From a virus: a stretch of 38,279 bases of DNA. Below, piece after piece: positions 19,303 to 24,485 of the stretch. Each line of letters opens with the position of its first letter. Positions within the stretch are counted from its first letter, which is position 1. The stretch lies in the IMG/VR virus record IMGVR_UViG_3300020474_001067, positions 1 to 38,279 of that record. One strand, given 5' to 3'. Both the position numbers and the translations under genes were made by a program. The notes below the pieces were generated by a model. The model was not told where the DNA came from, searched no databases, and worked only from the letters and a program-made list of their open reading frames with translations.

Positions 19303-19406
19303 AGAGGGAACTTTCATGCACGCCACTTACTCTTTTACCTGAAGCAAGAAACAGGGCGGGAGTTACCTCCATCCGCACCACTTGCTCTTAGGTAAAGCAA
19401 GAAACC
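19303..19406 (-). repeat. Two imperfect direct repeats between the 67-residue gene and gmd
   Basis: CACTTACTCTTTTACCTGAA then GCAAGAAAC (19324-19352) and CACTTGCTCTTAGGTAAAGC then AAGAAAC (19379-19405), plus-strand sense, are about 27-29 bases each with their starts 55 apart. The second also contains a perfect hairpin, CTTGCT/AGCAAG; the first has it with one mismatch. A 23-codon frame (19301-19372) spans the interval but has no good ribosome site. Purpose unknown. Confidence 0.45.
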
Positions 19407-19610
19407 TCAGAGATCGGCAAACTTAGCAGGAAACTCACGCTTGAGAGCAGCAGCAATCTGTTCGACTCTTGCGGAATCGGAACTATCACCACCATCACAT
19501 TTTTGATGTGCTTTTGCTTCTAATGCCTTTACCCTTGCTTCGATTTCTACATCATACCTAGACATTGCTGCCCCGGTTGCAGACTTCGCTGCTTTTCCTT
19601 GAATTGCCAT
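19407..19610 (-). CDS. Small hypothetical protein behind a late-type promoter
   Basis: 67 residues: an Ala/Lys-rich N-terminus (AIQGKAAKSATGAAMSRY), a predicted helix (DVEIEARVKALEAKAHQK), a Gly/Asp/Ser linker (CDGGDSSDSAR) and a second helix (VEQIAAALKREFPAKFADL). No family recognised. It is isolated, with an ATAAATA-like box upstream and a terminator downstream, so it forms its own late unit. Confidence 0.65.
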   Translation of the reverse strand: MAIQGKAAKSATGAAMSRYDVEIEARVKALEAKAHQKCDGGDSSDSARVEQIAAALKREFPAKFADL

Positions 19611-20550: not shown

Positions 20551-20551
20551 G

Positions 20552-20624
20552 TGCTTCCTGTGAGGATCGAACTCACCTTAGGCAAATTATGAGTTTGCTG
20601 CATTCACCAGATTGCTAAGGAAGC
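20552..20624 (-). tRNA. tRNA-Met (CAT)
   Basis: 73-base cloverleaf on the minus strand: acceptor GCTTCCT/AGGAAGC, anticodon stem GCAAA/TTTGC with loop CTCATAA (anticodon CAT), T stem GTGAG/CTCAC with loop TTCGATC. No CCA is encoded. A CAT anticodon could also be a lysidine-modified isoleucine tRNA; the sequence alone does not settle this. Confidence 0.88.
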
Positions 20625-20627
20625 AAA

Positions 20628-20699
20628 TAGGACTGCTGGGAATTGAACCCAGTTTACCCCGTTATAAGCAGAGAGCATTAACCAATATGCGACAGTCCC
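20628..20699 (-). tRNA. tRNA-Ile (TAT)
   Basis: 72-base cloverleaf: acceptor GGGACTG/CAGTCCT (first pair G-T), anticodon loop CTTATAA (anticodon TAT, decoding ATA), T arm CTGGG-TTCAATT-CCCAG. The anticodon stem CTCTG/CGGGG has two wobble pairs. It directly abuts the stop codon of the Phd-like gene. An ATA-reading tRNA suits an AT-rich phage. Confidence 0.85.
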
Positions 20700-23705: not shown

Positions 23706-23954
23706 TTAACGAACATCAAAGTCTAATCGACGAATTTTACGCCTACGTCTTTCTTCTTGGTAGAGAAGTTCTCCTGAAGAGAAATGACTATCAATCTTTC
23801 TCTCTACATTATTAGTTACCATTACAACCTTATCTAAATCTTTGGCACCAATTTTATTATCAATCAAACTCATCTGATTGAGACAACCACAGAACTGAAT
23901 TTTACTGGTGCTTGTTAGTTCTTTTTTACACTCTTTACATCTAATAGTAATCAT
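23706..23954 (-). CDS. Small zinc-ribbon-like protein
   Basis: 82 residues. MITIRCKECKKELTSTSKIQ then FCGCLNQMSL gives four cysteines, C-x2-C and C-x-C, at residues 6, 9, 22 and 24, a plausible treble-clef or zinc-ribbon site. A basic end (QEERRRRKIRRLDFDVR) could bind nucleic acid. No named family. It follows tRNA-Val by 22 bases. Confidence 0.65.
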   Translation of the reverse strand: MITIRCKECKKELTSTSKIQFCGCLNQMSLIDNKIGAKDLDKVVMVTNNVERKIDSHFSSGELLYQEERRRRKIRRLDFDVR

Positions 23955-23976
23955 TGGAAATACTTTGAATTCGACA

Positions 23977-24048
23977 TGGGCGAAGAGGGGATCGAACCCC
24001 CGACAATCTCCGTGTAAAGGAGGTGCTCTACCTCTGAGCTATTCGCCC
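23977..24048 (-). tRNA. tRNA-Val (TAC)
   Basis: 72-base cloverleaf: acceptor GGGCGAA/TTCGCCC, D arm GCTC-AGAGGTA-GAGC, anticodon loop TTTACAC (TAC), T arm GGGGG-TTCGATC-CCCTC. It closely resembles bacterial tRNA-Val. No CCA is encoded. Confidence 0.92.
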
Positions 24049-24066
24049 GTAACACTACACTTATCC

Positions 24067-24222
24067 GTATGCTATATGGGCATTTAAACCCAACATACTG
24101 ACAGTTTGTAATGGAGTAGGACAGGGGTCCACCCTGAACATCCAAAGGGGGCTGATTCCTATCAACAGGGTTTCGGTATATCCGAACCGATAGGCACCTT
24201 TGGCTGGAACGTCTCAAGTTCC
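24067..24222 (-). ncRNA. Candidate structured RNA between tRNA-Asn and tRNA-Val
   Basis: The 177 bases between the two tRNAs hold no convincing gene but four consecutive foldable elements (plus coordinates). A: GTATG/CATAC enclosing TGGG/CCCA (24067-24098). B: CAGGG/CCCTG (24122-24136). C: a nested stem, CCAAAGG/CCTTTGG (24142-24148 with 24197-24203) enclosing CCTATC/GATAGG, stacked on GGTT-T-CGG/CCGAACC with loop TATAT. D: GGAAC/GTTCC (24206-24222). This density is far above the rest of the window. The strand is set to minus because the flanking tRNAs are; function is unknown. Confidence 0.45.
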
Positions 24223-24225
24223 TAA

Positions 24226-24297
24226 CTCCCCCGGCAGGATTCGAACCTGCGACCAGACGATTAACAGTCGTCGGCTCTACCGCTGAGCTACAGAGGA
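24226..24297 (-). tRNA. tRNA-Asn (GTT)
   Basis: 72-base cloverleaf: acceptor TCCTCTG/CGGGGGA, D arm GCTC-AGCGGTA-GAGC, anticodon stem GACGA/TCGTC with loop CTGTTAA (GTT), T arm GCAGG-TTCGAAT-CCTGC. Its first ten bases are shared with the end of the upstream 65-residue gene. Confidence 0.92.
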
Positions 24298-24485
24298 TTG
24301 TTGTACTCTTTCTTTGTTTTGAAGTAGAGTTTATAATATCTCTTCTTCATTTCATTAAGAGTATTCATATCATCTTGAAATCCCATGTATTTACACATTT
24401 GGGATGACCCTTCCAATTCACTAATCAATCTTAGTATATTAACAGGGTGTTTTTCAAGTCCTCCAAAATCATACTGAGACATCAT
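24288..24485 (-). CDS. 65-residue hypothetical protein between tRNAs
   Basis: From ATG 24485: MMSQYDFGGLEKHPVNILRL then ISELEGSSQMCKYMGFQDDM and a basic helical end (NTLNEMKKRYYKLYFKTKKE). The longer frame to 24557 is only translated tRNA-Gly. Its stop codon lies inside tRNA-Asn. Not recognised; helical and positively charged at the C-terminus. Confidence 0.5.
   Translation of the reverse strand: MMSQYDFGGLEKHPVNILRLISELEGSSQMCKYMGFQDDMNTLNEMKKRYYKLYFKTKKEYNNPL

Follow-up and report, generated by a model that had tools for sequence, protein, structure and literature searches.

Inside its tRNA cluster, phage T4 encodes two small stable RNAs, RNA C and RNA D (species 1 and 2), which are derived from tRNA precursors and whose function is unknown. 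Other noncoding RNAs have been described from comparable surroundings. GOLLD is found in phage and prophage tRNA islands, is often longer than 800 nt, has a conserved 3' region and a less conserved 5' region and forms 14-mer cages, and ROOL is a large and highly complex phage RNA that contains pseudoknots and is often located near tRNA islands; both are of unknown function (PMC12286853). In T4-like cyanophages, the structured RNAs wcaG, manA and PhotoRC-II are tied to protein genes (PMC2864571), and the noncoding RNA CfrI of phage S-PM2, about 225 nt in length, is antisense to psbA (reviewed in PMC12197685). The described cyanophage RNAs wcaG, manA, PhotoRC-II, glnA, abiF and CfrI do not include the RNA reported here (PMC2864571, PMC9964418, PMC12197685), and no description of it was found in the open-access papers that were searched.

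A folded interval between two tRNA genes

The stretch of DNA analysed, referred to as the window, comprises a viral record 38,279 bases in length. Its closest relatives are T4-like cyanophages, e.g. S-SM2, SynMITS9220M01 and Bellamy. The gap between its minus-strand genes for tRNA-Val and tRNA-Asn spans exactly positions 24049-24225 (177 nt). The sense strand of the predicted RNA is the minus strand, the same as for both flanking tRNAs, and it reads from 24225 to 24049. A first-pass annotation, in which no strand was assigned, had described a densely folded 177-base interval in the tRNA cluster, with a 62-base nested hairpin at 24142-24203 and with neither a tRNA nor a credible protein inside. 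The interval was confirmed and fills the gap exactly, the hairpin is present with CCAAAGG/CCTTTGG as its closing stem, and the searches for tRNAs and open frames given below agree with the remainder of the description. A second tRNA group of the window, Met and Ile at 20551-20699 on the minus strand, lies apart from the Arg-Gly-Asn-Val group and does not contain the new RNA.

When the interval was compared with shuffled sequence, the minus strand fell outside the shuffled range, with a folding energy of -57.6 kcal/mol (z = -3.33) that was equalled by 1 of 200 shuffles. The plus strand stayed inside the range (z = -0.72). For 25 relatives the folding energies are modest, with a mean z of -1.24 for the sense and -0.97 for the antisense strand. 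Because these family values are weak, folding energy is not relied on as proof, and the case is made by covariation instead.

A search of the window against Rfam 15 matched only tRNAs and wcaG, with no match inside 24049-24225; the wcaG motif (RF01761, 90.9 bits) is located at 19312-19409 on the minus strand. Under permissive limits, a search of 23900-24350 gave only chance scores inside the element, among them YrlA, which was rejected as a chance match at 14.5 bits. At the loci of four relatives Rfam detected tRNAs only. Neither ARAGORN nor the tRNA model (RF00005) matched inside the interval, and the covariance models of GOLLD and ROOL likewise gave no match there.

Any of the six frames is interrupted by stops in at least 81% of the 148 distinct relatives, no open frame is conserved, and the lengths, 131-200 nt, cover all three phases. 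Judged from these sequences, the interval is not protein coding. Public records annotate hypothetical proteins over the RNA at L003 (2466-2750, minus), L005 (1466-1750, minus, and 1698-2021, plus), L009 (1431-1637 and 1643-1735, plus), L010 (1443-1625, plus) and L014 (1509-1625, plus), and in the S-TIM54 record the annotated start of petE overlaps it. These small proteins and the S-TIM54 petE start are probably spurious where they cross the RNA.

Two types with a common 3' domain and a pseudoknot

Used alone as a blastn query, the 177 nt returned 34 phage records, including two weak chance matches from Gordonia, and scans with short patterns located more copies in many IMG/VR stretches. In total, 167 distinct relatives whose flanks could be read were obtained by BLAST and pattern scans. 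Relatives occur in tRNA clusters of many marine cyanophages, and the element is a discrete block regardless of its neighbours. It lies between tRNA-Asn and tRNA-Val in S-CAM9, S-PRM1 and S-8S55, between tRNA-Thr and tRNA-Asn in Syn1 and S-RIM44, and after tRNA-Gly and before petE in S-TIM5, and it is flanked by tRNA-Gly and tRNA-Asn in S-SM2 and by tRNA-Met and tRNA-Leu in S-T4. Cultured phages carrying the RNA are S-T4, S-PRM1, S-TIM5, S-SM2, Syn1 and S-CAM9.

The relatives form two types that have one common 3' domain (CUCC AUUACAAACUGUCAG ... GGAUAAGUGUAAUGU) and unlike 5' halves, type A as in the window and type B beginning with GACGGGGAAUGAGCUCGCCCGCGACGGUGCUAACCACACUG... Both types start with a hairpin that carries GAG in its loop. 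Of the 80 distinct 5' halves, 24 were found joined to at least two different 3' halves, and five complete 3' halves were seen with both type A and type B; the halves are thus exchanged. The features of the window are as follows.

24226..24297, minus strand: upstream tRNA-Asn(GUU), CCA not encoded; its 3' end marks where the RNA is predicted to begin
24049..24225, minus strand: whole structured RNA, type A, the predicted mature RNA; a conserved block with its ends taken from the abutting tRNAs or a promoter
24206..24222, minus strand: P1 hairpin, GGAAC-UUGAGAC-GUUCC (RNA 4-8 with 16-20); double changes in 2/5 pairs
24213..24215, minus strand: GAG of the P1 loop, 5' strand of the pseudoknot, with CUC at 24114-24116 as its partner
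24142..24203, minus strand: P2 nested hairpin, closed by CCAAAGG/CCUUUGG (RNA 23-29 with 78-84)
within 24142..24203, minus strand: P2 inner helix, CCUAUC/GAUAGG (RNA 32-37 with 63-68); double changes in 5/6 pairs
24119..24139, minus strand: P3 hairpin, CAGGG/CCCUG with an outer G-C pair (RNA 87-94 with 100-107); double changes in 5/6 pairs, 99.3% of cells paired
24114..24116, minus strand: CUC in the P3/P4 junction, 3' strand of the pseudoknot; type B has compensatory changes here
24053..24113, minus strand: P4-P6, long irregular 3' stem-loop (RNA 113-173), common to types A and B; P4 and P5 covary
23977..24048, minus strand: downstream tRNA-Val(UAC); its 5' end marks where the RNA is predicted to stop

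Covariation analysis across related cyanophages found covarying pairs in both types. In the type A fold (49 sequences), 96.2% of cells are paired and 20/49 pairs show double changes; those in P1 are A-U/G-C and C-G/G-C. The type A covariation score of 0.255, against 0.122 (sd 0.005) for shuffled data, was reached by 0/500 shuffles, and controls with slid partners scored at most 0.066. Type B scored 0.117 against 0.070 for shuffled data, again with 0/500 (25 sequences). The apical part of P2 differs in length among phages. The window, row 1 of alignment A1, has the P1-P2-P3 arrangement, the pseudoknot and the 3' domain of the new family, and R1, a covariance model of the 3' domain, matches its P4-P6 with 88.6 bits (E = 1.8e-23).

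In the pseudoknot, GAG(Y) of the P1 loop pairs with (R)CUC immediately before P4, thereby enclosing P2 and P3. It is almost invariant in type A, where a small number of copies have the wobble variants CUU and UUC, so that its support comes from type B. There, all of the 66 scored occurrences pair and none is broken (GAGC:GCUC 45, GAGU:GCUC 9, GAGU:ACUC 7, GGGC:GCCC 5), as do 39/39 distinct sequences. The GGGC:GCCC forms, at L209, L210, L212 and L276, came from scan patterns that left both strands free and did not fix CUCC. The CUCC motif itself is not invariant, and CCCC, CUUC and UUCC variants were found in scans without it. The shape, including the knot, is kept while the letters change, and the element is therefore almost certainly a working RNA.

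Three irregular copies were observed. Near 6114-6133 of L278 (plus strand), a 5' half of type B has its pseudoknot partner (GCUCCA) but lacks the 3' domain and is directly followed by tRNA-Val; from this copy, the 5' domain may be able to stand alone. Near 11491 of L170 (plus strand), a type A copy has lost a large internal segment, so that P2 adjoins the end of the 3' domain. Near 10366 of L016 (plus strand), a fusion unites a type B element with the beginning of a tRNA-Leu gene; it probably arose through recombination at AGACGG, a short sequence that both share.

Ends of the RNA and its possible roles

The downstream tRNA begins at most 5 nt, mostly 2 or 3 nt, from the 3' end of the element in 151 of the 160 copies that could be judged, and an upstream tRNA abuts its 5' end in 134/161. 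Many different tRNA pairs flank the copies. Where tRNAs of these arrays lie close together, the gaps are mostly 0-3 nt, and the element is thus spaced like an additional tRNA. Where no upstream tRNA abuts, 22 of the 27 copies have a TATAAT-type box, which ends exactly 7 nt before the element in type A and 6 nt in type B; most of these promoters read TTGACA-17 nt-TATAAT. This position places the predicted transcription start at, or within 1-2 bases of, the usual end of the upstream tRNA. Two unrelated routes lead to the same 5' end, indicating a defined RNA. No close downstream tRNA is present in S-TIM5 and S-TIM54 (before petE), S-N03, MA10 and L152, and there the 3' end must form otherwise. 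Downstream of 1700 in L007 and L008 (S-N03 and MA10), a G+C-rich stretch has predicted hairpins and no tRNA. In L025, L042, L051, L074 and L196, a spacer of 52-53 nt with a strong hairpin (CUACAGG...CCUGUA) separates the element from tRNA-Thr.

Model R1 found a single copy per genome in all 13 complete carriers tested and none in ten other tRNA-bearing cyanophages. A clean cassette made up of tRNA-Thr and the element, located between tRNA-Arg and tRNA-Asn, distinguishes isolates of S-RIM44. A host origin was considered and rejected on a scan of prokaryote genomes with one exact motif, which remote host relatives could escape; it returned three strings from Bacteroidota contigs, which R1 does not match and which were put down to chance. 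Going by the comparative data, the element is a new family of structured noncoding RNA, confined to cyanophages so far, and a putative extra member of the tRNA operon. The earlier suggestion of a new phage small RNA is borne out by a covarying conserved structure, a defined 5' end and the lack of an Rfam 15 match. A regulator, which was suggested alongside it, would be a possible role.

The reading ranked first is that of a stable RNA which is cut from tRNA precursors and acts in trans. This is probably correct; fold and position are observed, and the maturation is predicted. The RNA would be co-transcribed with the tRNAs and freed by the tRNA enzymes. Its 5' end would come from either RNase Z or the transcription start, and its 3' end from RNase P trimming of the following tRNA. 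In general tRNA maturation RNase Z cuts after the discriminator base, which would free the 5' end of the RNA directly, and RNase Z is the proposed enzyme because CCA is not encoded in the upstream tRNA. The product would be a stable, compact RNA of approximately 131-200 nt. Action in trans during infection appears most likely, with a host protein, the ribosome or another RNA as candidate partner, and the 5' half, which varies, and the 3' half, which is constant, may make different contacts. The single copy whatever the number of islands, the varying neighbours and the occasional copies that no tRNA follows closely favour action after release over local assistance to a single operon.

In second place, and considerably less probable, is a cis-acting element of the tRNA operon, i.e. 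an antitermination-like leader or spacer or a means of presenting tRNAs to the processing enzymes, with no role after cleavage. A tRNA within 5 nt downstream in 151/160 copies is expected for such an element, and the near-constant downstream tRNA makes a role in cis possible; moreover, transcription from a promoter can begin with the element itself. On the other hand, each carrier genome has a single copy although its tRNAs number 1-12 and are often spread over several islands, and S-PM2 has 24 tRNAs but no copy. In addition, the neighbouring tRNA varies among phages, some carriers lack a close downstream tRNA, and two unlike 5' halves and a pseudoknot exceed the needs of a spacer.

It is improbable that the element is a riboswitch or a 5' leader of a downstream protein gene. 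Its location just upstream of petE in S-TIM5 and S-TIM54 would suit that role, but nearly all other copies precede a tRNA gene rather than a protein gene, and a conserved expression platform or terminator was not noticed. Equally little credit can be given to a mobile or recombination module that acts as DNA and lands in tRNA arrays, with the RNA fold being incidental. Such a module would account for the shuffled halves (24/80 5' halves with more than one 3' half, five 3' halves with both types) and for a cassette that is cleanly present or absent, yet the compensatory changes in the helices and the non-nested pseudoknot indicate selection on RNA, no open frame is conserved, and the promoters align with the 5' end of the element. 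A decayed pair of tRNA genes, which the first-pass annotation had also considered, is rejected: the position between tRNA genes and the resemblance of the 7-bp P2 closing stem to an acceptor stem point to tRNAs, whereas no tRNA model matches inside, there is no cloverleaf, and more than 100 phage sequences are conserved and covary in a different fold.

Returning to a stable RNA acting in trans, a more specific and tentative proposal is a modular phage RNA in which a constant 3' stem is combined with exchangeable pseudoknotted 5' heads, cut from tRNA precursors. While marine cyanobacteria are being infected, it might bind a component, from host or phage, of translation or tRNA metabolism, with heads being swapped under an arms race.

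Comparison with known phage RNAs

GOLLD resembles the new RNA in being a structured phage noncoding RNA beside tRNAs, with a conserved 3' region, a less conserved 5' region and no assigned function. Association with phage tRNA islands, a trait of GOLLD, is also seen for the element, which indicates a shared setting and not homology. In contrast to GOLLD, the new RNA measures 131-200 nt, has an unrelated fold and lacks an Rfam match. ROOL is likewise found near phage tRNA islands, bears pseudoknots and has no assigned function, but is far larger, and the new RNA has no Rfam match. The RNAs wcaG, manA and PhotoRC-II are other Rfam families, none of which matches the interval, and S-PM2, the phage of CfrI, does not carry the new RNA.

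The closest analogues in a T4-like phage are RNAs C and D of T4, a likeness in kind that does not imply homology. The element is reported as a new family within a known kind of RNA, with its own modular architecture. To the few RNAs of phage tRNA clusters it adds a compact and well-supported family that has two domain types and a pseudoknot backed by covariation and which, unlike GOLLD and ROOL, is short enough for routine probing and structure work. The presence of stable RNAs other than tRNAs in the tRNA clusters of T4-like phages is an old question, which can be put to a direct test with the S-RIM44 isolates, as some carry the cassette and others lack it.
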